Assembly: GCF_000204415.1 (NCBI RefSeq)
Contig: NC_015416.1
Coordinates: 2,728,001 to 2,792,000 of the forward strand
From: Methanothrix soehngenii GP6
Lineage (GTDB): Archaea; Halobacteriota; Methanosarcinia; Methanotrichales; Methanotrichaceae
Length of the DNA stretch: 64,000 nucleotides
Direction of reading: 5' to 3'
The notes under the pieces are model-generated. The model saw nothing but the letters and a program-made list of their open reading frames with translations. It was not told the origin of the DNA and ran no database searches. Positions 6,191 to 43,247 of this stretch are shown here, piece by piece. How positions within the stretch are numbered: the first letter of the stretch is position 1; each line of letters starts with the position of its first letter. The position numbers and the translations under genes are program-made.

Positions 6191-9100
6191 ACTTGTTTTA
6201 CGTAATTTTAAAAAGTATAGACGCGCGACAATTGAATTTCAGGAAGGATTGACAGGTATCATTGGTAGTAATGGTTCAGGAAAAAGTACAATAGTAGAAG
6301 CAATCGCATGGGCACTATATGGTAATAAGGCATCATTAATCAAGAGAAATCTTATAAAAAATACCCATGCTAATGAAAATGAGCCCGTTGAAATAACACT
6401 ATTTATTAGTCAAGATAATATAGATATGAAAATAATTAGGAACATGAAAGGAAAAAACCTGATTCCTGATGCAACACTATATATAAATGATGATATAATA
6501 TCTTCTGGAACACGAGATGTAGATAAAATGCTTGAAGAAATTCTCAATATCAGCTATCAGGATTTCATGAAGACCTTCTACGCCCGGCAAAAGGACCTGG
6601 ACAACCTCCTCAAAGAGGGAGGAATGGGAAAGAGGGAGTATCTGCTCAAGCTCCTGGGATTGGAGGACATAAAGGAGAGCGCCCTGGAGCAGATCAAATC
6701 CGATCGATCAAGCCTTGAAGACCAGAGAAGCCGGCTGGCCGGAGCCTTGGGGGAGATCGGGGAGGTCCAGGCCCGGCTGATGGAGGCGTCACGGGAGATA
6801 TCCTTTGTCAGAGAGGGGCTGGTGGAGGGGGAAAGATGCGAAGCCCAATTGCTGGGGGAGAAGGAGTTGCGGCTCATGGAACTGGATGTTCTTAACCAGA
6901 AGATGAACTCTTATGGCATTCTGGCGGAGAGGGCCTCCCGGCTGCAGGAGGAAGCCAGGAGCCTGGAGGTTCTCATAGCCAGAGATGAAGGGCGTCTGAA
7001 GGAGATCGAGGCATCAAAGAGGCTTCTCGAAAAGATCGGTCCCGCTCTGGATAGGCTGACCGGAGTCCTGTCAAGGCTCGAGCTGCTTGAGCCCAGGAGG
7101 AACCTGTACGAGGAGATCTCCAGGAAAATAGCAGTGGCAAAGTCTCGACTGGAGGGAGATAGAGCTGCTCTGGAGAAGGATGAGAAGAGGCTCGTGCAGC
7201 TTGAAGGGGATAGGGCCAGGCTCGATGAGCTTCTGCCCCAGGAAGAGGATTACAAAGAGGTTCAAGTGCTCCTGGCCAGGTTGGAAGAGCTGCGAGAGAG
7301 GTATGCCAAAATCAGCCTGAGCCAGAAAGAGGATGCTATCAGGCTACAAGGAGCAAGGTCGAACCTGGTCCGAGCGGACAGATCTATAGAGGATCTGCAA
7401 AGAGCGTCTGCCAGGTACGAAGAGCTTTGGCCGGCAATAGAAGAAGAGAAGAGGCTGAAAGTTGAGCAGACGAAGCTTTCCGGAGAGAAGGAGAGGCAAC
7501 GAGAGCTTGACCTTCTGGAGAGCCAGAAAAAGGCCCTGGCGGGCAGGATAGCAGCCCTGCGGGAGGCAGCAGCAAAAATCCGGGAGAATCTTCTGGGCCT
7601 GGGAGACCTGGAAGGAAGAGAGGGAGAGCTGCGCCGGCAGGATAGGGACCTTGATTCTCTCGGATCCGAGCTGAACAACGCTTTGGCCGACCTCAGGGGG
7701 AGCCTGAAGGTTCAGGAGAATACGTATCTGGAAAATGAGAGGGCACTTAAAAAGGTCAGTACTCTGGGAAGGGAGGGGCTCTGTCCCACCTGCGAGAGGC
7801 CAATAGAGGGCCAGAGGGATCTGCTCCTCGGAAAGTACCAGTTCGCTCTGGCCCAGGCAAAAGAGGAGAGGGAGAAGCTGAAGGGAATGGCGGCCTCACT
7901 CACTGAGAAGATCGAGGGGGTGGCAAGCTCTCGTAGCCGGCTGGCCGGGGCCTTCGAGGATCTGAATGCCAAAAAGAGCCTGCGCTCTGCTCTGCAGGCG
8001 GATATGAGAAATGCCGATTTGCAGATAAAAGAGGCCACTGAAGAGATGGAAGGGATCATGGCTATGGTCGGATCTTTTGGTCCTGTCTCCTTTGACGCCA
8101 AAAGGCTCCAGGATGTCGAAGCCGCTCTGACAAAGCTCGCGCCAATGGCGGAGGAGTGCCAGGGCCTGGCAGTGCGAAAAGAGGAGCTGCCCCGGAGGGT
8201 ACTGGAACGGGAGGCGATAAAAGAAGAGATAGAGACACTGGCCAAGAGAGGGGAGCATCTGGAGGAGCAGATCAGAGAGCTGGGCTACTCAGAATCTCAA
8301 TATATCGAGGCTAAAAGATTGTGGGAGAGCTGCAAGTTCCCGCACGAGCAGTTTATCACCCTTCTGGAGAGGACAAAGGAGATCCCGGCTCTGGAGGAGA
8401 AGATTGCTCTTCAGAGGAGCGAGATAGAAAAAGCCTCCCGGTCCCTGGTGGAGCTGGAGAGATCTGTCAAGGATCTGGGCTTTGATCCGGAAGAGTACAG
8501 CTCTTTACTGGCAGAGAGAAAGAGGCTGGCCCAGGCGGAGGAAGAAGCCAATAAAATAAAAATCCGGCTGGCTCTTGAGCCCGAGGTCAAAGAAAAGCTG
8601 GCCGAGTCTCAAGGTGCCCTGGAAGCCAGGCAATTGGATATCGCCCGGATAAGGGCGGAGATGGAGTCATTGGCCTACAGCCAGAGGACCCATGAGATGG
8701 CAAAACTTGCCCTGGCCGAGGCGGAGAGGAATCTCGTGGCATCGCAAAAGGAACTGTCCGACAAAAGGATTCGCCTTGGCGTCCTGGAAGCGGAACTGGC
8801 AAGGCTGAAAGAAGAGGAGAAGAGAAAGAAGGAGCACCAAAAGAGGCTGGAAGAGACCTCGAGGAGGCTGGAGGTGGTGGAGATGACCCGAGGCCTTGTC
8901 AACGATTTTATGGATCAGGTTCTGATCAGGGTGAAAAACGATATCGCCAAAGCGGCCAGCGAAATCCTGGAGGAGGTCTCAGGCAAGTACAGCCTGCTGA
9001 AGATCGACGACGACTTCAACATTCAGGTGGAGGACGGCGGCAATTACTACCCCATCTCCCGCTACTCCGGCGGGGAGATCGATATGATCGCCGTATCGGT

Positions 9101-21540: not shown

Positions 21541-21612
21541 ACTTAACATGGACGGATTAAAATATCTGGTTTTCCATCCGTCACGTGTGAGCCCCTGCCT
21601 GGGCTCATGGGC

Positions 21613-22460
21613 GTTTCAATCCTTGTTTTCGTGGAACTTGCTCTTGATGTCCCATCTATGTCTCGGGGGATGATGCTCTGACCGTGTTTCAATCCTTGTT
21701 TTCGTGGAACTTGCTCTTGATGGATCGGGGAACATCGAAGAAGCAACCACGGCGTGGGAGTTTCAATCCTTGTTTTCGTGGAACTTGCTCTTGATGAGGC
21801 AACAAATACGATGCTGTAGAGCTTGGCCCTTAGTTTCAATCCTTGTTTTCGTGGAACTTGCTCTTGATGATGGAAACGTCTTTGAACAAATGGCAAAGGA
21901 AGTTGCCACGTTTCAATCCTTGTTTTCGTGGAACTTGCTCTTGATGGTTCACTTTGTAATGCCACGGGCTGTACGCATTTCGTTTCAATCCTTGTTTTCG
22001 TGGAACTTGCTCTTGATGAGAAGCCCCACAAGCAGAGCCACCGGGAAGAATGCAGTTTCAATCCTTGTTTTCGTGGAACTTGCTCTTGATGTGAATGTCA
22101 TGGAATCGACTGGGGTGGACGAATTTCGTTTCAATCCTTGTTTTCGTGGAACTTGCTCTTGATGTCCTAGAGGAGTCTGGGACGTTTTTCTATGCGGTGT
22201 TTCAATCCTTGTTTTCGTGGAACTTGCTCTTGATGTGTCACCTTCTAATTATGACCACCGCGTCAACTGCAGAGTTTCAATCCTTGTTTTCGTGGAACTT
22301 GCTCTTGATGTTGAGATCAGGGCAGCGGACAGAGCGATGGTGTCCTTGAGTTTCAATCCTTGTTTTCGTGGAACTTGCTCTTGATGTTTTCAACAAAATG
22401 TCAGAAGGAAGTTGCATGATGGCGTTTCAATCCTTGTTTTCGTGGAACTTGCTCTTGATG
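21613..22460 (-). CRISPR. CRISPR array, leader-proximal segment (12 repeats)
   Basis: Twelve identical 37-bp repeats start at 21613, 21686, 21760, 21833, 21910, 21982, 22055, 22128, 22199, 22274, 22350 and 22424, with 11 spacers of 34-40 nt. Spacers at 21870-21909, 21947-21981 and 22019-22054 are exact copies of those at 19394-19433, 19471-19505 and 19543-19578. The full array therefore has 22 complete repeats and 22 spacers, 19 of them distinct. The last repeat abuts the leader. Confidence 0.96.
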
Positions 22461-29369: not shown

Positions 29370-30005
29370 TTAGACGCATATATTCCTGTACGTGCAGTCC
29401 ACGCACCTTGCCTTCTGCTTCGTCCCATCGGGATAGTATCCCCTCTGAATTATCATCAATATCTCGCGGACAATCTCCTTAGCTTTCTCATAATCTTTCT
29501 GCTTGAAGTCGATTTCCGCCACGTAATTATTGCTCCTGGTGTAGCAGACAAAACCTCGTTTTACATCCACGCCGAAGTGCTCCATAATGAGCAGCCCGTA
29601 AAGAGCAGCCTGAAACTTGTGCGTCCTGTAAACAGTGTTCTTGAACTCCGCATACTTGTAATCCAGAGGCGCTGCTGTTCCATCCTCCAGAAAGAGGACC
29701 TCATCAACTTCTCCCTTGAAGTGGTACTTCTGCGAAGTAAGGTAAACGGAGATCTCTTTTCGGACGCAGTTGAGCCTCTTTCTTACGTAATCCCGATTCA
29801 CCTTCTCACGGCTCTCATGCAGCTCTCTGCCCTTTTGGACCTTGTAGCGCCGTTCCTCTCGCTGAGCGATGCCCAGGCAGTGCATGAAGAATATGAACCT
29901 CGGGCAGAACAGGTACTCCAAAGCATCGGAGACTGTGACGAAAACCTCCTGCTCGATCTTCTGCTCGGGCTCAGGTATCGCTGCCGTTTCGCCTTCCGTC
30001 TGCAT
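29370..30005 (-). CDS. cas4: Cas4, RecB-like nuclease for spacer acquisition
   Basis: 211 residues. Iron-sulfur cysteines: one in YLFCPRF near residue 34 and a C-terminal set CVDCTYRNIC. The PD-(D/E)xK nuclease core is GEVDEVLFL and PLDYKYAE (D-x-K), with the QAALYGLLI helix following. Cas4 trims prespacers and checks the PAM. Starts one base after the cas2 stop, as part of cas1-cas2-cas4. Confidence 0.93.
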   Translation of the reverse strand: MQTEGETAAIPEPEQKIEQEVFVTVSDALEYLFCPRFIFFMHCLGIAQREERRYKVQKGRELHESREKVNRDYVRKRLNCVRKEISVYLTSQKYHFKGEVDEVLFLEDGTAAPLDYKYAEFKNTVYRTHKFQAALYGLLIMEHFGVDVKRGFVCYTRSNNYVAEIDFKQKDYEKAKEIVREILMIIQRGYYPDGTKQKARCVDCTYRNICV

Positions 30006-30006
30006 C

Positions 30007-31421
<1,415 letters not shown>

Positions 31422-34377: not shown

Positions 34378-34586
34378 GGCAAATCGATACCATTGAGCGA
34401 TTCGGAAGAATGATTCCACAAAGCAAATTCGCGTTCTCTTCGGCGGCTCTGGTGCCTGATCGCTCTTCCATAAAAGATCTGAATTGCACCCCACAATTAT
34501 TATAATCTAATTAATAAATTTTGAGGCAGGCAGAGCAACCTACAAATACAATCAACCCTTATCGCTGTCCCGGCGCGGTTGGGAAC

Positions 34587-37340
34587 ATGTCAGAAATAAA
34601 GCTGCTCATCGATGATCGAGAGGTATCCGTCCCCCAGGGGTCCACCATTCTCGATGCTGCCCGCATTGCGGGCTCTTATGTGCCGTCTCTTTGCCACCAC
34701 CCGGACTTGAAGCCCATAGGCTCCTGCAAGCTCTGCATCGTCTCTGTGGAAGGCCTGGATTACTATCCTTTATCCTGCAATACCCCTGCAGCCGAGGGAA
34801 TGGTTGTCCATACCCGCACCGAGGAGCTCCAGGAGATGAGACGACATACCCTGGAGATGCTCCTCGCCCTCACCAACCATCCCACCTCCTGCCTCTTCTG
34901 CGAGAGAAAGAACGAATGCGGCGAGCTGCGGGAGTGCATGCGCAAGTTTCCAGTAACAGTGGGCTGCAAGTACTGTCCTAACGACGGCCAGTGCGAGCTG
35001 CAAGAGGCAGTCACCTTCACCGGTTTGGACAGGATCAGATATCAGACCTCTTTCCGGGATATGCCGGTATTAAGAGAGCCGTTCTTCGACCGCAACTACA
35101 ATCTCTGCATCATGTGCAGCCGGTGCATAAGAATGTGCGACGAGGTACGCGGCCTGGGCATCCTATTTAACAACCCCGATTTTCACCGCAACCACTGGAT
35201 AGGTCCCGAATCCCTGCAGGAGGCAGACTGCAAGTTCTGCGGCGCATGCGTGGACGCCTGCCCCACCGGCGCCCTCTTCATCCGTTCGGAGAAATGGATC
35301 CGGCCCGACCGCACCGTGGTCACCATCTGCCCCTACTGCGGCGTAGGCTGCAGCCTGGATCTCAAGATCTCTGAAGACAGAATATTATCCGTCACGCCAA
35401 GCCGGGATGGAGCGGTAAACCGGGGCCAGGCCTGCGTCAAAGGCCACTTTGGATTGGAGGAGATCATCCACCATCCCGACCGCTTCACCACTCCTCTGAT
35501 AAAGAGAAACGGTCAATTCGAGCCGGCATCCTGGGATGAGGCTTTAGACCTGGTCGCCCGGAGGTTCACAGAGATCCAAGATCGATACGGCCCCGATTCT
35601 TTAGGGGCTTTCTCCTCCTCCCGCTGCACCAATGAGGAGAACTATCTGGTGCAAAAGCTTGCCAGAGCGGTCTTTAAAACCAACAATGTGGACAACTGCG
35701 CCCGGGTCTGCCATGCCCCCTCAGTGACCGGTCTTGCCGCCTGCTTTGGCAGCGGAGCAGCCACCAACTCCTTTGACCAGATTGAAGACGCCGATGTCCT
35801 TTTCATCATCGGCTCCAATACCACTGAAGCCCATCCCGTAGTCAGCCTGAAGATAATCAAGGCAGCCAGAAATGGAGCGAAGATAATCGTCGCTGACCCC
35901 CGTAAAATCGAGCTGGTCGACAGGGCATCGGTCTGGCTCAACCAGAAACCGGGAACAAGCATCGCCCTGATAAATGCAATGATGAATGTGATCCTTAAAG
36001 AAGGGCTGGAGGACCGGGATTTCATAGACCGGCGCACCATGGGATTTGAGAACCTGCAAAAGACGGTGGAGGAGTATCCGCCTGAAAGGGCATCCCAGAT
36101 CACCGGAGTGGCGGCAGAGGATATCATCGAGGCCGCCCGGCTCTATGCCAGTGCCGATAAAGCGATGATCATCTACGGCCTGGGCATAACTGAGCACACC
36201 ACAGGAACCTCCAATGTGATGTCCCTGGGCAACCTGGCAATGCTCACCGGAAACGTTGGCCGCCGCTCGACTGGCATCATGCCTCTGCGCGGCCAGAACA
36301 ACGTCCAGGGGGCCTGTGATATGGGCGCCCTTCCCAACGTCCATGTCGGCTACCAGCCGGTGACCGATGCTGGCATCCGGTCCAAGTTCGAGGAAGCCTG
36401 GAAGGTTGCCTTGCCTTCTGTCCCCGGCCAGACCTCCACCCAGATGATAGAACGCAATCCGGGAAAGGAGATCCGCGGCCTTTACATCCTGGGAGAGGAC
36501 CCCGCCCATACCGAGCCCGACACCAACCGGGTGAGATCAACTCTGGAGTCCCTGGACTTCCTGGTAGTGCAGGAGATATTTCCCACTGAGACCACCAGGT
36601 ATGCAGACGTCATCCTGCCCGCAGCCAGCTTTGCCGAGTGCGATGGAACATTCACCAACGGCGAGCGGCGCATTCAAAGGGTGCGGAAAGCGATACCAGC
36701 ACTATGCGGCCAGGAGAACTGGCTGACGATCTGTCAGATCGCCCAGAGGATGGGCTATCCGATGAGCTACGGCCACCCCTCGGAGATCATGGATGAGATC
36801 GCCTCACTGGCGCCGATGTTTGCCGGAGTGAAGTTCGATCGGCTGGATGACGGCGGGCTGCAGTGGCCCATACCATCCCTTGACCATCCGGGAACAGAGA
36901 CCCTGCATGCGGAGAGCTTCAGCTGCGGCCTGGGAAGGTTCAATGCCGTACAGCACAAGTACCCCGCTGAGCAGACCGATACGGAATATCCCTTGATCCT
37001 CACCACCGGCAGGAGAAGGGAGCATTACAACTGCGGATCCATGACCAGGCGATCCAAAGGAATAATGTGGGTATGGCCGGAGGAGGCCATAGAGATAAGC
37101 CCTGCCGATGCCAGAGAACTCGAGATCGAGGACGGAGAGACGGTTGTTGTCAGCTCCAGGCGGGGCTCTGTTAAGACCAAAGCAAGGGTTACAGACAAGT
37201 CCTCCCGCGGCATGGCCTTCATGTCGTTCCATTACCAGGATGTCTTGACCAACCTTCTGACCAATGCCGCTCTTGATCCTCAGGCGAAGACTCCGGAGTA
37301 CAAGGCATGCGCTGTGAAGATAGAAAAGTTAAAGGCGTAA
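34587..37340 (+). CDS. fdhA: Formate dehydrogenase-like molybdo/tungsto-enzyme with NuoG-like N-terminus
   Basis: 917 residues from ATG 34587. A [2Fe-2S] domain (C36, C47, C50, C64) is followed by a His-Cys cluster (H98, C102, C105, C111), an extra CKYCPNDGQC, two [4Fe-4S] ferredoxin motifs (C174-C184, C215-C225), then the bis-MGD domain starting CPYCGVGC. The metal ligand is Cys375 in NCARVCHAPSVTG, where many formate dehydrogenases have selenocysteine; H376 follows. This is the clostridial/Moorella-type catalytic subunit. No FdhB, NuoE or NuoF gene is adjacent. Instead the gene heads an operon of heterodisulfide reductase subunits, suggesting electrons pass between formate and HdrA. Confidence 0.88.
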   Translation: MSEIKLLIDDREVSVPQGSTILDAARIAGSYVPSLCHHPDLKPIGSCKLCIVSVEGLDYYPLSCNTPAAEGMVVHTRTEELQEMRRHTLEMLLALTNHPTSCLFCERKNECGELRECMRKFPVTVGCKYCPNDGQCELQEAVTFTGLDRIRYQTSFRDMPVLREPFFDRNYNLCIMCSRCIRMCDEVRGLGILFNNPDFHRNHWIGPESLQEADCKFCGACVDACPTGALFIRSEKWIRPDRTVVTICPYCGVGCSLDLKISEDRILSVTPSRDGAVNRGQACVKGHFGLEEIIHHPDRFTTPLIKRNGQFEPASWDEALDLVARRFTEIQDRYGPDSLGAFSSSRCTNEENYLVQKLARAVFKTNNVDNCARVCHAPSVTGLAACFGSGAATNSFDQIEDADVLFIIGSNTTEAHPVVSLKIIKAARNGAKIIVADPRKIELVDRASVWLNQKPGTSIALINAMMNVILKEGLEDRDFIDRRTMGFENLQKTVEEYPPERASQITGVAAEDIIEAARLYASADKAMIIYGLGITEHTTGTSNVMSLGNLAMLTGNVGRRSTGIMPLRGQNNVQGACDMGALPNVHVGYQPVTDAGIRSKFEEAWKVALPSVPGQTSTQMIERNPGKEIRGLYILGEDPAHTEPDTNRVRSTLESLDFLVVQEIFPTETTRYADVILPAASFAECDGTFTNGERRIQRVRKAIPALCGQENWLTICQIAQRMGYPMSYGHPSEIMDEIASLAPMFAGVKFDRLDDGGLQWPIPSLDHPGTETLHAESFSCGLGRFNAVQHKYPAEQTDTEYPLILTTGRRREHYNCGSMTRRSKGIMWVWPEEAIEISPADARELEIEDGETVVVSSRRGSVKTKARVTDKSSRGMAFMSFHYQDVLTNLLTNAALDPQAKTPEYKACAVKIEKLKA

Positions 37341-37347
37341 TGATTGG

Positions 37348-37953
37348 ATGATCTCTAAAGTTTACATTTCCTACGATCCGGATGATGAAGACCTGGCTCT
37401 GCGGCTCTCGCTAGCGCTGGGGCGGGTGGGCCTGGAAAGCTATGTCGCCCTGTACAATCAATCGCCTGCTATCTCTCTTGCCGATAGGGTGTCCTTTGCC
37501 ATAAGAAACTCCGAGTGCCTGGTGGCTCTGGCAACCCGGAAGGGAAGTCGTTCTCCAGCCCTCTGCCAGGAGATAGGTCTGGCCAGGGGCATTGACCAAC
37601 TGATCATTCCCCTGCAAGAGGAGGGCGCTCAGCTTCCTTTTCTGATCGATCAATTGCGAGCTTTACCCTTCAGAAGGGAGAGCTTTGCCGATGCCATAGG
37701 CATCTTGATCAAAAGCATCCGGGAGTTGAGCCGTCTGGAGTGGCTTCGGGTGGTCTGCCCCCAATGTGGAGAGGAGATGACCCAGTATCTGACCGACCAG
37801 GATGAGGTGGACTCTGCCCAGGAAAAGGGAATCTTCCTGGAGACGATCTGCAGCTACTGTCAGAACACAATCCTGCTCGACCCGCGGACATTCGAACCTC
37901 TGCCTGGGGAGCAAGAATCGCTGAAACCCCAGAAGTTCATAGAAAATTTTTGA
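37348..37953 (+). CDS. TIR-domain protein with C-terminal zinc ribbon
   Basis: 201 residues, 7 bases after fdhA. Residues 1-120 read as a TIR domain: VYISYDPDDEDLALRLSLAL, then SFAIRNSECLVALATRKGSRSPALCQEIGLARG and IIPLQ. Glu75 occupies the position of the TIR catalytic glutamate. A zinc ribbon follows (C137, C140, C168, C171). TIR enzymes usually hydrolyse NAD or signal in defence. Finding one between fdhA and hdrA in the same direction is unusual. It could sense or consume a nucleotide, or be a non-enzymatic scaffold. Role unknown. Confidence 0.75.
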   Translation: MISKVYISYDPDDEDLALRLSLALGRVGLESYVALYNQSPAISLADRVSFAIRNSECLVALATRKGSRSPALCQEIGLARGIDQLIIPLQEEGAQLPFLIDQLRALPFRRESFADAIGILIKSIRELSRLEWLRVVCPQCGEEMTQYLTDQDEVDSAQEKGIFLETICSYCQNTILLDPRTFEPLPGEQESLKPQKFIENF

Positions 37954-38017
37954 CAAATGGCTTTTTTTCCCTTGCATAGGTTTAAGTGAATTAAGGAGAT
38001 CATACTACCTGAAGTCC

Positions 38018-40453
38018 ATGCCCATTGGTGTTTATGTATGTCATTGCGGCCTGAATATCGCCGGCGTCTTGGATATTGAAGAGCTGAAGAGCTTCGCCGA
38101 GAAGCTGCCTGATGTGGCCGTGGCCAGAGATCTGCAGTTCTCCTGCTCGGATATTGGGCAGGAGCAGATTCAAAAGGATATTGCTGAATATAAGCTAGAT
38201 AGGATCGTGGTGGCCGCCTGCTCGCCCAGACTGCATGAGCCCACATTTCGCCGGGCCATTGCCAAGGCCGGGCTGAACCCCTATATGCTGGAGATGGCCA
38301 ACATCCGGGAGCATTGCTCCTGGGTGCACATGGACCTGCCAGCCATGGCCACGGAGAAGGCCAAGGACCTGATATCAATGGCCGTGGCCAAGGCCGCCCT
38401 CCTGCAGCCCTTAGAGCAGGAGCAGATACCGGTTAACAAGGATGTGATGGTAGTAGGAGGAGGCGTGGCCGGGATCGCTGCCGCCCTGGACCTGGCGGAT
38501 GCGGGCTTTCATGTGTTTTTGGTGGAACGCCGGCCGACCATCGGCGGTTACATGGCCCTGCTCACAGACGTCTTTCCCACCAACGACTGCTCCATCTGCG
38601 TTCTGGGCCCCAAGATGTCCGAGGTCTTCAACCATCCCAATATCACCCTCTACACCTATTCCGAGGTCCTGGGGGTGGAGGGCAGCGTGGGCAACTTCAC
38701 AGTATCTGGAGTTCACCGGGCACGCTATGTGGACCCGGTCCTCTGCAAAGGCTGCATAAACGAATGCGCAGACGTCTGTCCAGTGGAGGTGCCCAATGAG
38801 TACGACTTTGGCATCGGCAAGAGAAAAGCCATCTATGTGCCCTATCCACAGGCCGTTCCTCTGTCGGCATGCGTAGACCCCAAGGCATGCATCGGCTGCG
38901 GCCGGTGTGTGGAGTCCTGCCCCACCCAGGCGGTCAAGCTGGATCAGGTTGTCGAGCACTTCACGATCAATGTGGGGGCCATAATCGTGGCCACTGGATG
39001 GCAGCCCTTTGACGCTGCCCGGAAGGAGGAGTACGGCTTTGGCAGGCTCAGGGATGTCGTCACCACTCTGCAGATGGAGAGGATGCTCAATGCCTCCGGC
39101 CCGACCAAGGGCGAGGTTGTCCGGCCGAGCACGGGCCAGGTCGCCCAGTCCATAGCTTTCTTGCAGTGTGTCGGCTCCAGAGATGCCACAGTCGGCAACA
39201 TATATTGCTCTCGGATCTGCTGCATGGCCTCGCTGAAGAATGCCCAGCTGATCGCTGAGAAGTACCCCGGCTCGGATATCACCATCTATTATATCGATAT
39301 CAGAGCATGCGGAGAAGGTTATGAGGAGTTCTATGTGCGGGCTCAGATGCTGGGGATAAACTTCGTTCGCGCCCGCGTATCCAGCATCGAGGAGGTTGAT
39401 GGCGATATCTATCTCCGCTTTGAGGACACCCAGACTGGAGAGATAAAGAGGGTCCGGCACGATATCGCTGTCCTATCCGTGGGCCTGGAGCCGGATAAGA
39501 GCGCGGACGTCCTGGGCAACCTTCTCGGCCTCTCCCGCAGGCCGGACAGGTTCTTTGAGATCGCTCACCCCAAGATGAGGCCGGTAGAGGCTCATATCGA
39601 TGGGGTGTTCATCGCCGGGTGCGCCTCCGGGCCCAAGGAGATCCCCATATCCATCGCTCAGGGCAGTGCTGCCGCCGCCAAGGCCATAAGGCTATTGCAG
39701 AAGGGATTCTTGGATCTGGAGCCCACATCAGCCTATGTGGATCCCGATCTGTGCATCAAGTGCAAGCTGTGCGTCGATGTCTGCCCTCAGAAGGCCATCT
39801 CTGTGAAGAGCCCGGCTTATGTGGACGAGGCAGCCTGCAAAGGCTGTGGGTCGTGTGCTGCCGCCTGTCCAGTGGATGCCATCAAGATGCGCCTGTTCTC
39901 AGATGAGCAGATCCTGGCCCAGATCAGAGCGGCGACCGAGGTGAAGAAGGAGTTTCCCCTTATCATCGCATTTTTGTGCAACTGGTGCAGCTACGGTGCC
40001 GCCGATCTCGCCGGTACCTCTCGCATTCAGTATCCCACCAATGCCCGCAACATCCGGGTGATGTGTTCGGCGCGGGTGGATCCCAGCTTCGTCCTGGAGG
40101 CCTTACGGCGAGGGGCGGATGGAGTGCTCATCGCCGGCTGCCGCATAGGCGAATGCCATTACCATGATGGGAACTACCAGGCTCTGCAGAGGGTGAATGT
40201 ATTGAAGGGTGTCCTGGAGAAGATCGGCATAAATCCGGGGAGGGTCAAGATCGTCTGGTGTGCGGCCAGCGAGGGCGAGATCTATGCTCAGGATCTGAGG
40301 GAGTTCATCGGGGAGCTGAAGGCCATCGGCCCCATAGGAACTGAGCTGGATAAGAGGAGAAAAGGGCCTGGAGAGGATGCCACAAAGGAAGCAGAGATAC
40401 AATCGGAAAGCACGATGGCCAAGGGAGGTGAGGGGCAGCATGATGGAGATTGA
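38018..40453 (+). CDS. hdrA: Heterodisulfide reductase subunit A fused to MvhD-like domain
   Basis: 811 residues. Thioredoxin-reductase-like FAD domain with VVGGGVAGIAAALDL near residue 145 and VERRPTIGGYM. Ferredoxin motifs: CKGCINECADVCP, CIGCGRCVESCP, CIKCKLCVDVCP, CKGCGSCAAACP. The last ~170 residues (FLCNWCSYGAADLAG, ADGVLIAGCRIGECHY) match MvhD, which passes electrons into HdrA. This is the HdrA2-type fusion known from Methanosarcina. HdrA holds the flavin that splits electrons between ferredoxin and CoM-S-S-CoB. A charged low-complexity tail follows the MvhD part. Confidence 0.93.
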   Translation: MPIGVYVCHCGLNIAGVLDIEELKSFAEKLPDVAVARDLQFSCSDIGQEQIQKDIAEYKLDRIVVAACSPRLHEPTFRRAIAKAGLNPYMLEMANIREHCSWVHMDLPAMATEKAKDLISMAVAKAALLQPLEQEQIPVNKDVMVVGGGVAGIAAALDLADAGFHVFLVERRPTIGGYMALLTDVFPTNDCSICVLGPKMSEVFNHPNITLYTYSEVLGVEGSVGNFTVSGVHRARYVDPVLCKGCINECADVCPVEVPNEYDFGIGKRKAIYVPYPQAVPLSACVDPKACIGCGRCVESCPTQAVKLDQVVEHFTINVGAIIVATGWQPFDAARKEEYGFGRLRDVVTTLQMERMLNASGPTKGEVVRPSTGQVAQSIAFLQCVGSRDATVGNIYCSRICCMASLKNAQLIAEKYPGSDITIYYIDIRACGEGYEEFYVRAQMLGINFVRARVSSIEEVDGDIYLRFEDTQTGEIKRVRHDIAVLSVGLEPDKSADVLGNLLGLSRRPDRFFEIAHPKMRPVEAHIDGVFIAGCASGPKEIPISIAQGSAAAAKAIRLLQKGFLDLEPTSAYVDPDLCIKCKLCVDVCPQKAISVKSPAYVDEAACKGCGSCAAACPVDAIKMRLFSDEQILAQIRAATEVKKEFPLIIAFLCNWCSYGAADLAGTSRIQYPTNARNIRVMCSARVDPSFVLEALRRGADGVLIAGCRIGECHYHDGNYQALQRVNVLKGVLEKIGINPGRVKIVWCAASEGEIYAQDLREFIGELKAIGPIGTELDKRRKGPGEDATKEAEIQSESTMAKGGEGQHDGD

Positions 40454-40772
40454 GAAGGACATGGAGGTGGAAGGATCCCATATCCTGGCCAAGCAGAGGA
40501 CCAAGGATAGCGAGAAGATCCTGGATTACGATTATAAGAAATGCGCCGGCTGCTCCATTTGCGTTGCCATCTGCCCCAAAAAAGCCTTGCAGGAGGGGCC
40601 GCTGAAGGAGATCGCCAAAGGCCTGGATGCGCCGCCTGTGTTGATAGACCAGGATCTTTGCGTATTCTGTGGGATGTGCGTGAACTTCTGTCCGATGAAG
40701 GCCTTCGAAATGAGAGTTGTGGAGAAAAAGGCTGAGCCAGAGGCGGCAGAGGCTGCCGAAGCAAAAGCATGA
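40440..40772 (+). CDS. 2x[4Fe-4S] ferredoxin
   Basis: 110 residues from ATG 40440 (GGAGGTGA upstream). An earlier in-frame ATG at 40377 lies inside hdrA and is less likely. Two cluster motifs, CAGCSICVAICP and CVFCGMCVNFCP, then an acidic-alanine tail (EPEAAEAAEA). It overlaps the hdrA end by 14 bases and the next gene by 4. Likely carries electrons to or from the HdrA complex. Confidence 0.9.
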   Translation: MMEIEKDMEVEGSHILAKQRTKDSEKILDYDYKKCAGCSICVAICPKKALQEGPLKEIAKGLDAPPVLIDQDLCVFCGMCVNFCPMKAFEMRVVEKKAEPEAAEAAEAKA

Positions 40773-41875
40773 CTGAAAATGTGTGTGAGACAACAGAAAA
40801 GGCAATGCCAAAGCCGGTCGACTTCAGAGAGAGGGAGGAGTATCCCAGGCTCATGGCCGAGGCGAAGCCAAATGAGAAGTGTCTGCCCTGCCTGCTCTGC
40901 GAGCCCGTCTGCCCGACGGAAGCGATCAAGGTGACCTTTGACAAGACTCGGGAGGATTTTGGACCCCTTCGGGAGGGGATTGAAGGGAAGATCTCCATAG
41001 ATCAGGAGAAGTGCAACCTCTGCGGACGGTGCGCCAGGTTCTGCAAGGCCTTCCTTCTGGTCGATAAAGTGGAAAAGGATCGGGATCCCCGCGATCTGGT
41101 GCCTTATGAGCAGCTGCTGATAGACGAGGATCTTTGCGACTACTGCGGGCTGTGCGTCCCCCTCTGTCCGGAGGAGGCGATCGCTGTCGAGGGCGAGCCT
41201 CTAAAGCTTGATGAGGAGCCGAAGATCGAGGGGAAGATAAAGGTCGATGAGAGCCTATGTATTGGCTGCGGCAGGTGCGCTCTGGTCTGCCCCTATGAGG
41301 GCATGGACATATCCAAGCCCTTCCAGGGGGAGATCAAGATGGTGGAGAAGAACCTCGTTCGATGCGATCCCCTGGGCTGTCTGGCCTGCTTCAACGTCTG
41401 CCCTGCCAAGTGCTGGTATGTGGACGAGCGGGGCAAAGCCGCTCCGGTGGAAGATCAGTGCATCCTATGCGGGGCCTGCGAGAAGGCCTGTCCCGTCTCG
41501 GCCATTGATGTGCAGAGGACTGAGGTCAGCCATACGGAGGTAAAGGAGACCCCCTGGGCAGAGGAGTGGAAGGAGGCGATTCGTACCATATTGACCGGCG
41601 AGCGGAAGATACCGGATGTGAGCGGCGCTGTGGTCCCGCCCAAGATCGATAGGACGCCCCTGCCCGCTCCGGAGGCGCCGAAGGTGGATCCCGAGCTTCT
41701 GAAGATGGTGGATGAAGCCTTAAAGCCGCTGGTGCCAATGCTGGCCAAGCCCAAGATCCGCCAGATCATGGAGAACGAGCCGCCGGATAAGGCGAGCCAG
41801 AAGATTGTAGAGAGGCTCCACGAGGCTGAAAGGAAGAGAAAGAAGGCAAGAGAAGAGAACGCGGGGGCAGTGTAA
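40769..41875 (+). CDS. Polyferredoxin
   Basis: 368 residues with six or so [4Fe-4S] motifs: CLPCLLCEPVCP, CNLCGRCARFC, CDYCGLCVPLCP, CIGCGRCALVCP, a variant CDPLGCLACFNVCP, and CILCGACEKACP. A C-terminal helical region without cysteines follows (about 265-368, ending RKRKKAREENAG). It resembles polyferredoxins beside Hdr or formylmethanofuran dehydrogenase. It probably wires FdhA or another donor to HdrABC. Shares one base with hdrC. Confidence 0.9.
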   Translation: MTENVCETTEKAMPKPVDFREREEYPRLMAEAKPNEKCLPCLLCEPVCPTEAIKVTFDKTREDFGPLREGIEGKISIDQEKCNLCGRCARFCKAFLLVDKVEKDRDPRDLVPYEQLLIDEDLCDYCGLCVPLCPEEAIAVEGEPLKLDEEPKIEGKIKVDESLCIGCGRCALVCPYEGMDISKPFQGEIKMVEKNLVRCDPLGCLACFNVCPAKCWYVDERGKAAPVEDQCILCGACEKACPVSAIDVQRTEVSHTEVKETPWAEEWKEAIRTILTGERKIPDVSGAVVPPKIDRTPLPAPEAPKVDPELLKMVDEALKPLVPMLAKPKIRQIMENEPPDKASQKIVERLHEAERKRKKAREENAGAV

Positions 41876-42405
41876 TGGCCACGGCAATAGAAGAGGATTT
41901 CAAGAACGAGGTATTAAGGCTGGCAGGAGAGGAGGTAAGGACCTGCATTCAGTGCGGCACCTGCTCGGCCAGCTGCCCCACGGCTCATCTTATGAAACCG
42001 AGCATAAGAAGATTGGTCAAGCTCTGTCTGGAGGGCAGACGGGAGGAGGCCCTGCACAATGAGACTCTGTGGCTGTGCACATCCTGCCTATTGTGCACTG
42101 TGCGTTGTCCCCGGGGAATAAGGCCGAAGATGGTCGTGTCCGCTCTGAAGGAGCTGGCGGACAGGGAGAAGATAGAAAGCCCTGGAAAGAACTACGACCA
42201 CCTCTTCAATAAGCAGATCGAGGAATACGGTCGGATAAGCGAGCTTCCTCTCATCGGCGAGTTCTTGCTCTTCTATCCCCAAGGGACTGTTCAGTCCATG
42301 AAGGTGGGCCTGGAGCTTCTCCCCCGGGGCAAGATAACCCTGGAAAGAGAGCAGGTTATGGGAAAGGATGAGGTCAAGAGGATTATGGAGGAGCTGGGCA
42401 AATGA
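41875..42405 (+). CDS. hdrC: Heterodisulfide reductase subunit C
   Basis: 176 residues with the two HdrC [4Fe-4S] motifs CIQCGTCSASCP and CTSCLLCTVRCP. The protein relays electrons from HdrA to the HdrB active site. Its end overlaps hdrB by 4 bases (ATGA). Soluble, without transmembrane segments, so this is the cytoplasmic HdrABC type and not membrane HdrDE. Confidence 0.92.
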   Translation: MATAIEEDFKNEVLRLAGEEVRTCIQCGTCSASCPTAHLMKPSIRRLVKLCLEGRREEALHNETLWLCTSCLLCTVRCPRGIRPKMVVSALKELADREKIESPGKNYDHLFNKQIEEYGRISELPLIGEFLLFYPQGTVQSMKVGLELLPRGKITLEREQVMGKDEVKRIMEELGK

Positions 42406-43247
42406 AGCTGGCTTACTATCCGGGTTGCGTTTCTCTCTCCACGGGAAAGGAGATGGACAGGTCCACCAGAGCGGTCTTTTCGAGCCTTGAAATCGAGCTG
42501 GAGGAGCTGGAGGATTGGAACTGCTGCGGGGCAACTCACGTCTCCAATGAGATGGTGGCCACGGGGCTTGCTGCCCGGAACATGTCCCAGACCGAGCTGG
42601 ATATCGTGACCTCCTGCTCCATCTGCTACAGCAACCTCAGGGCGGCTGCCATGAAGCTGGAGGATGTGGAGATCAGAGCCAAAGTGAATGCCGTCCTGGA
42701 AAAGGAGTACAAAGGGGCGAAGATTCGGCACGCTCTGGATGTGATCCTCGAGGTTCTGGAGAAAGATGACCAGGGGATTGTGGTTCCTTTAAAGGAGCTG
42801 AAGGTGGCTGCTTATTATGGCTGCCTCCTCTCACGCCCTCCTGGGGTGTACAGCCCGGAGTATCCCGTTGTCCTGGAGAAGCTGATCCGGATTCTGCAGG
42901 CGGACGCTGTTGACTTCCGGCGGAAGACCTTCTGCTGTGGCGGGCCGATATTCATGCCCAAGGAGGAGGCTGCCAATGAGACCGCCTATCGAATCCTGAA
43001 AGACGCCAAGGAGGCGGGAGCGGAGGTCATCATCACCGTCTGCCCTCTGTGCCAGTTCATGCTGGATACCAAGCAGAGGTCGGTGGAACAGAGGTATGGT
43101 GAGGAGATAGGGATTCCAGTTCTCTATGTGACCCAGCTGGTGGGCATCGCATTGGGCCTGGGGCCGGACGACCTGGGAATGGATATGAATTCCGTATCGC
43201 CTATGCCGATGATGGAGCGGATATACCAGAGGATGGCGGAGCAGTAG
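42402..43247 (+). CDS. hdrB: Heterodisulfide reductase subunit B
   Basis: 281 residues with the two cysteine-rich CCG domains: C9 with NCCGATH and CSICY, then YGC with FCCGGP and CPLCQ. These hold the two non-cubane [4Fe-4S] clusters that cleave CoM-S-S-CoB. Last gene of the operon; a hairpin follows 9 bases after the stop. Confidence 0.93.
   Translation: MKLAYYPGCVSLSTGKEMDRSTRAVFSSLEIELEELEDWNCCGATHVSNEMVATGLAARNMSQTELDIVTSCSICYSNLRAAAMKLEDVEIRAKVNAVLEKEYKGAKIRHALDVILEVLEKDDQGIVVPLKELKVAAYYGCLLSRPPGVYSPEYPVVLEKLIRILQADAVDFRRKTFCCGGPIFMPKEEAANETAYRILKDAKEAGAEVIITVCPLCQFMLDTKQRSVEQRYGEEIGIPVLYVTQLVGIALGLGPDDLGMDMNSVSPMPMMERIYQRMAEQ

Follow-up and report, generated by a model that had tools for sequence, protein, structure and literature searches.

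The window analyzed here comprises 64,000 nucleotides of Methanothrix soehngenii GP6 (contig NC_015416.1, positions 2,728,001 to 2,792,000) and lies within a contig of 3,008,626 bases, in a genome of 3,026,645 bases. It contains a small gene, located between fdhA and hdrA, whose product joins a TIR domain to a C-terminal zinc ribbon. An earlier note on this DNA had placed the gene 7 bases after fdhA and 64 bases before hdrA, and these coordinates were confirmed: the stop codon of fdhA ends at 37340, 7 bases (TGATTGG) before the ATG of the TIR-ribbon gene, and 64 bases (37954-38017) separate its stop codon from the ATG of hdrA. We conclude that the TIR-ribbon gene is an old, single-copy and vertically maintained housekeeping gene of the Methanotrichales that is under purifying selection. 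The gene is built as follows:

37348..37953, plus strand: TIR-zinc-ribbon gene, ATG start, 201 amino acids (open reading frame, Pfam, presence in the order, AlphaFold2 model)
37348..37728, plus strand: TIR domain, residues 1-127 (Pfam TIR_2 at residues 5-117, AlphaFold2, fold search)
37570..37572, plus strand: codon of Glu75, at the position of the catalytic Glu of TIR NAD-cleaving enzymes (NADases) (62 of 62 homologues, HMMER alignment to AbTIR)
37729..37905, plus strand: C-terminal zinc ribbon, residues 128-186 (alignment; ribbon model with a predicted local distance difference test score, pLDDT, of 89)
37756..37767, plus strand: first knuckle, C137-x-x-C140 (both Cys in 62 of 62)
37849..37860, plus strand: second knuckle, C168-x-x-C171 (C168 in 62 of 62, C171 in 61 of 62)

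The Pfam model TIR_2 matches residues 5-117 with an E-value of 1.5e-9 (38.8 bits against a curated cut-off of 28) and is the only Pfam model of this fold that matches the protein. The AlphaFold2 model, calculated with 43 orthologues, has a pLDDT of 92.3 and a predicted template modelling score of 0.86. When this model was searched with Foldseek, SPARTA TIR-APAZ chains occupied the whole of ranks 1-21 (lowest E 5.2e-8), and below them stood the Toll-related receptor TRR-2, MilB (E 2.8e-5), nucleoside deoxyribosyltransferases and SARM1; AbTIR was found with an E-value of 1.5e-4. VIA-align gave Z scores of 15.3 for SPARTA (root mean square deviation 3.9, 136 aligned), 13.4 for the SARM1 TIR domain (2.6, 120 aligned), 12.9 for DNPH1 and 12.5 for MilB. 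Taken together, Pfam and both fold searches identify a TIR domain inside a wider N-glycosidase fold. The TIR assignment of the earlier note was thus upheld by structure prediction, with SPARTA and SARM1 as the best structural matches; a flavodoxin-like fold was not present among the fold matches listed by Foldseek and VIA-align.

Conservation was determined in 62 homologues, 43 from methanogens and 19 from haloarchaea, the latter assignment being based on the gene content of large genomes. The methanogen sequences were picked for spread from the full-length copies found; one locus without a protein (L049) and one protein cut at residue 154 (L024) do not figure in the alignments, and a TIR protein without ribbon (L166) was excluded from the haloarchaeal set. 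E75, G77, A79, R125, W132, C137, C140 and C168 are identical in all 62 sequences, and C171 is replaced only once, by Tyr in L029. In the HMMER alignment Glu75 pairs with the Glu of the AbTIR stretch WTNYE, which we take to be the catalytic residue of AbTIR. Glu75 thus occupies the place of the catalytic Glu of TIR NADases, in the helix after strand C, as had been proposed.

The C-terminal domain is a ribbon with four cysteines (C137, C140, C168 and C171), in agreement with the earlier observation that a zinc ribbon stands in place of the usual effector or sensor module. Modelled alone it reaches a pLDDT of 88.9, and among methanogens it is the better conserved half of the protein (mean identity 0.66 versus 0.53 for the TIR domain). 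Its likeness to known ribbons is weak. The best Foldseek match is eS27 (E 0.48), which is also found with hmmsearch (E 0.0044 over 14 positions); structural Z scores are 4.0 for LysW, up to 3.1 for eS27 and 2.5 for the Hsp33 redox switch. The top rows of the hmmsearch by E-value were disregarded: these are designed TPR repeats whose scores add up from numerous tiny matches, in most cases with none significant by itself. LysW, eS27 and other zinc ribbons are alike in general shape, and none gives a family-level match. Hsp33 looked promising by sequence (hmmsearch E 0.027; hhalign probability 92% over 35 columns in the second half), but was not favoured by its structural score, which lies below those of LysW and eS27. 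The likeness to its C-terminal redox-switch domain consists of a ribbon with a helix preceding the second knuckle; the window protein has no Hsp33 chaperone domain, and its first knuckle is C-x-x-C instead of C-x-C, presumably the spacing in E. coli Hsp33. An RNA-binding module was rejected, the charge of the ribbon not being basic (medians of -3, -1 and 0 in three groups).

The gene was detected in 46 of 50 Methanotrichales genomes, in all 33 good ones (at least 90% complete, at most 5% contaminated) and in all 11 genera; full-length relatives are 45-77% identical. At the class level 99 of 191 genomes have a match, with those in families f5 and f6 reaching the TIR part only. In the inferred Methanosarcinaceae 54 of 111 genomes match, 50 of them with long matches and four weakly (two to the TIR part only, two to a 24-residue tail), and in the Methanosarcina-type genus g35 the gene is absent from at least one genome (G189). 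At the phylum level 89 of 391 genomes match; some 20 of these matches are remote full-length relatives from inferred haloarchaea (E about 1e-10 to 1e-16). With a haloarchaeal profile, 292 genomes of the class inferred to be haloarchaeal were searched; 69 of them, from three families, contain the gene. The median ratio of non-synonymous to synonymous substitution (dN/dS; NG86, pairs with dS 0.1-1.0) is 0.18 for the TIR part (84 pairs) and 0.21 for the ribbon (166 pairs), where the pairs are not independent of each other. In the tree a very long branch separates methanogen and inferred haloarchaeal members. The Methanosarcinaceae copies adjoin the harundinacea group, with a support of 91/98 that does not decide the matter; such a placement would be consistent with a single transfer between the two families.

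The genes surrounding the TIR-ribbon gene in the window are:

34521..37340, plus strand: fdhA, formate dehydrogenase alpha with a NuoG-like N-terminus (model matches)
37962..37968, plus strand: run of seven T between the TIR-ribbon gene and hdrA (sequence)
38018..40453, plus strand: hdrA2 with a C-terminal MvhD/FlpD domain (model matches)
40377..43247, plus strand: small ferredoxin, polyferredoxin, hdrC and hdrB (open reading frames and Pfam)

The upstream neighbour matches the formate dehydrogenase alpha model TIGR01591 with 865.8 bits (cut-off 666), and the downstream neighbour is HdrA2 according to NF040770 (1267 bits, cut-off 1100). The true start of fdhA is probably the ATG at 34587; in relatives the matches usually start at residues 12-23 of the query. 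Runs of T such as the one upstream of hdrA could terminate transcription in archaea. With the TIR gene alone intervening, the window (34521-40453) has an fdhA with NuoG-like N-terminus directly upstream of an HdrA2-MvhD fusion; the close fdhA copies of relatives stand elsewhere, without hdrA2. Further upstream, a CRISPR array with at least 12 repeats (37-nt core) is located at 21597-22460 and a Cas4-Cas2-Cas1 module at 29370-31421, 6-8 kb from the gene, with Cas4b, Cas2b and Cas1b as best models.

To compare neighbourhoods, 48 related loci were used, 44 from Methanotrichaceae and four from Methanosarcina or Methanolobus. The conservation check suggested by the earlier note had a divided outcome: related genomes do have the gene itself, but the order fdhA-TIR-hdrA occurs, among the loci examined, in the window genome only, and neither fdhA nor a co-directional hdrA stands beside the TIR-ribbon gene in any of the 48 loci. 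Likewise, no hdrA2 or TIR gene was found near the closest fdhA copies (78-82% identical) in seven relatives. hdrA2 is present in the flank of 17 of the 48 loci, upstream and divergent in all 17. Downstream and on the same strand, 19 loci carry a SPOUT RNA methylase (PF02598) together with uL3, a member of the S10 ribosomal-protein operon, and four loci have both this operon and hdrA2 as neighbours; many flanks end at contig ends, so that both counts are lower bounds. L117 and L120 are only fragments, and their genomes are already represented in the count by L083 and L095. The ancestral order was probably the hdr operon (leftward), the TIR-ribbon gene (rightward) and the S10 operon. According to these counts the order in the window is probably a later rearrangement, and the gene would lie between fdhA and hdrA because of this rearrangement in the Methanothrix soehngenii lineage.

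L117 contains a second, truncated copy (8001-8348) beside the S10 operon, which starts at residue 70 and has two of the four ribbon cysteines altered; the full copy of this genome adjoins hdrA2 (L083), and the truncated one resembles a remnant in decay at the former site. In another genome a ribbon-only fragment with an in-frame stop, a duplicated and decayed ribbon, was observed around position 7972 of L139 (G046 C1 352971). In 18 inferred Methanosarcinaceae loci neither hdrA nor S10-operon neighbours were found, and a small gene, N1, follows the TIR-ribbon gene in eight of them. The gene is placed after hisC-, CDP-alcohol transferase-, MBF1- and triosephosphate isomerase-like genes in 18 of 19 inferred haloarchaeal loci, these names being assigned by reading the sequences and not by search. 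In these haloarchaea (L150-L169) a gene designated K6 is often convergent to the TIR-ribbon gene; its product has several cysteine pairs of zinc-ribbon type and ends in a J-domain-like part.

The reading that we favour, with a probability of roughly 0.45, is that the protein is a housekeeping TIR-type nicotinamide N-glycosidase. Judged from sequence and model, Glu75 in the TIR pocket would assist cleavage of the nicotinamide-ribose bond in NAD+ or in an NAD-containing molecule, and the ribbon may dock the protein on a partner or restrain it until it is needed. The TIR fold, the closest structures, the invariance of Glu75, the near-universal presence, the dN/dS values and the W-x-x-x-E motif of the haloarchaeal members support this reading. 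SPARTA TIR-APAZ has a Glu at the equivalent place; the window protein differs from it as a single small protein with housekeeping distribution, without APAZ or adjacent Argonaute. It shares the fold of the NADases SARM1 and AbTIR and the Glu position of AbTIR, but carries a zinc ribbon instead of ARM/SAM domains or a coiled coil. Several points weigh against such an activity. The motif W-x-x-x-E is regarded as important in TIR NADases, and its first residue (position 71) is W in all 19 inferred haloarchaeal members but in none of the 43 methanogen members; since the motif is incomplete, the window protein is not classed as a proven NADase. A constitutive NADase would be toxic unless restrained, and a regulator was not found. 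In the window protein the TIR domain and the ribbon each have a negative net charge (-2 and -8), which speaks against a nucleic-acid-bound substrate. In addition, a Glu at this position occurs in more than 70% of all TIR domains according to published work.

It is conceivable, though we consider it doubtful, that the protein is a non-catalytic adaptor. Its TIR domain would then mediate self-assembly or binding and its ribbon would attach to a partner protein or to the ribosome, with Glu75 retained for structural reasons or for its contacts. The loss of the tryptophan in all methanogen members would fit such a role, as would the stronger conservation of the ribbon, its weak likeness to eS27 and the recurrence of the ribosomal-protein operon as downstream neighbour; Glu is moreover retained in many non-enzymatic TIR domains described in the literature. 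Against this, the nearest structures are NADases, and the absolute conservation of Glu75 across the long branch between methanogens and haloarchaea exceeds that of most adaptors.

A nucleotide N-glycosidase or transferase of the MilB, DNPH1 or nucleoside deoxyribosyltransferase type, rather than an NADase, is unlikely. These enzymes also use a conserved Glu and are present in both fold searches, but TIR proteins outscore them in both, although the gap of 0.5 between SARM1 and DNPH1 amounts to a tie, and TIR_2 is the sole Pfam match.

Equally improbable is a redox-sensing or assembly protein of an Fdh-Hdr complex. The earlier note had suggested a functional tie from the embedding of the gene, and this was not supported: among the loci examined the order is unique to the window genome, and hdrA is divergent wherever it is a neighbour in the related loci. 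A partner of Hdr/Fdh was therefore rejected as the main interpretation, and a conserved operon place, as expected of an Fdh-HdrABC subunit, was not found. For the suggested redox coupling or assembly role there are the close, co-directional position in the window and the weak Hsp33 likeness, to which the 17 divergent hdrA neighbours may be added; the Methanosarcinaceae, however, retain the gene with hdrA nearby in none of 18 loci, and homologues occur in inferred haloarchaea, where a methanogenic Hdr would not be expected. That a gene sits within an operon in a single genome does not mean that it works together with that operon.

An antiviral TIR defence gene, suggested by the defensive role of most prokaryotic TIR proteins of known function and by Cas4, Cas2, Cas1 and the CRISPR array 6-16 kb upstream, is quite improbable, because the gene is near-universal, single-copy and slowly evolving and adjoins housekeeping operons, and the window protein has no PADLOC match at E 1e-3 (best ThsB, E 0.012; among relatives ThsB is matched by L047 alone, E 6.9e-4). 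The combination of family model and partner gene that defines Thoeris, SPARTA or TIR-SAVED was not found; Argonaute, ThsA or similar partners were absent from the 10 window neighbours scanned. The TIR-ribbon gene thus probably encodes no subunit of the Fdh-Hdr complex and is probably not a mobile defence gene.

Of the archaeal TIR proteins TcpA and TcpO, the former acts on NAD+ as well as on NAD-capped RNA and depends on its Glu for cleavage, and TcpO is an NADase without decapping activity (PMC10937652); within the favoured N-glycosidase reading, the fold thus cannot predict the substrate. Both are larger (327 and 341 versus 201 amino acids) and are likened here by description, not by sequence. 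A far-fetched but consequential idea is a housekeeping class of archaeal TIR proteins, one job of which would be to release nicotinamide from RNA with an NAD cap or from some other macromolecule that bears NAD, with the ribbon guiding the protein to RNA or the ribosome. It is weakened because known decapping TIR proteins tend to have positive charge near the catalytic site (PMC10937652), and because only 69 of the 292 genomes of the inferred haloarchaeal class have a homologue. How archaea decap NAD-RNA is still open in the published literature: four Nudix proteins from Sulfolobus acidocaldarius all failed to do so in one study, whose authors point to uncharacterised NADases (PMC10663502). If the idea were true, the protein would be a TIR counterpart of NudC from bacteria and could supply the NAD-RNA decapping activity that is missing in archaea.

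As far as the listings show, a literature search covering open-licence full texts found no description of a TIR-ribbon family; the texts of PMC12918732 and PMC11087674 do not mention TIR, and a look for SriA and SriB gave no result. What is new here is a TIR domain joined to a zinc ribbon with housekeeping inheritance. Research on prokaryotic TIR proteins has dealt almost entirely with patchily distributed genes of defence or virulence. A single-copy gene under purifying selection that all good genomes of an order have kept suggests that archaea also put TIR domains to housekeeping use, which is testable in the genetically tractable Methanosarcina.
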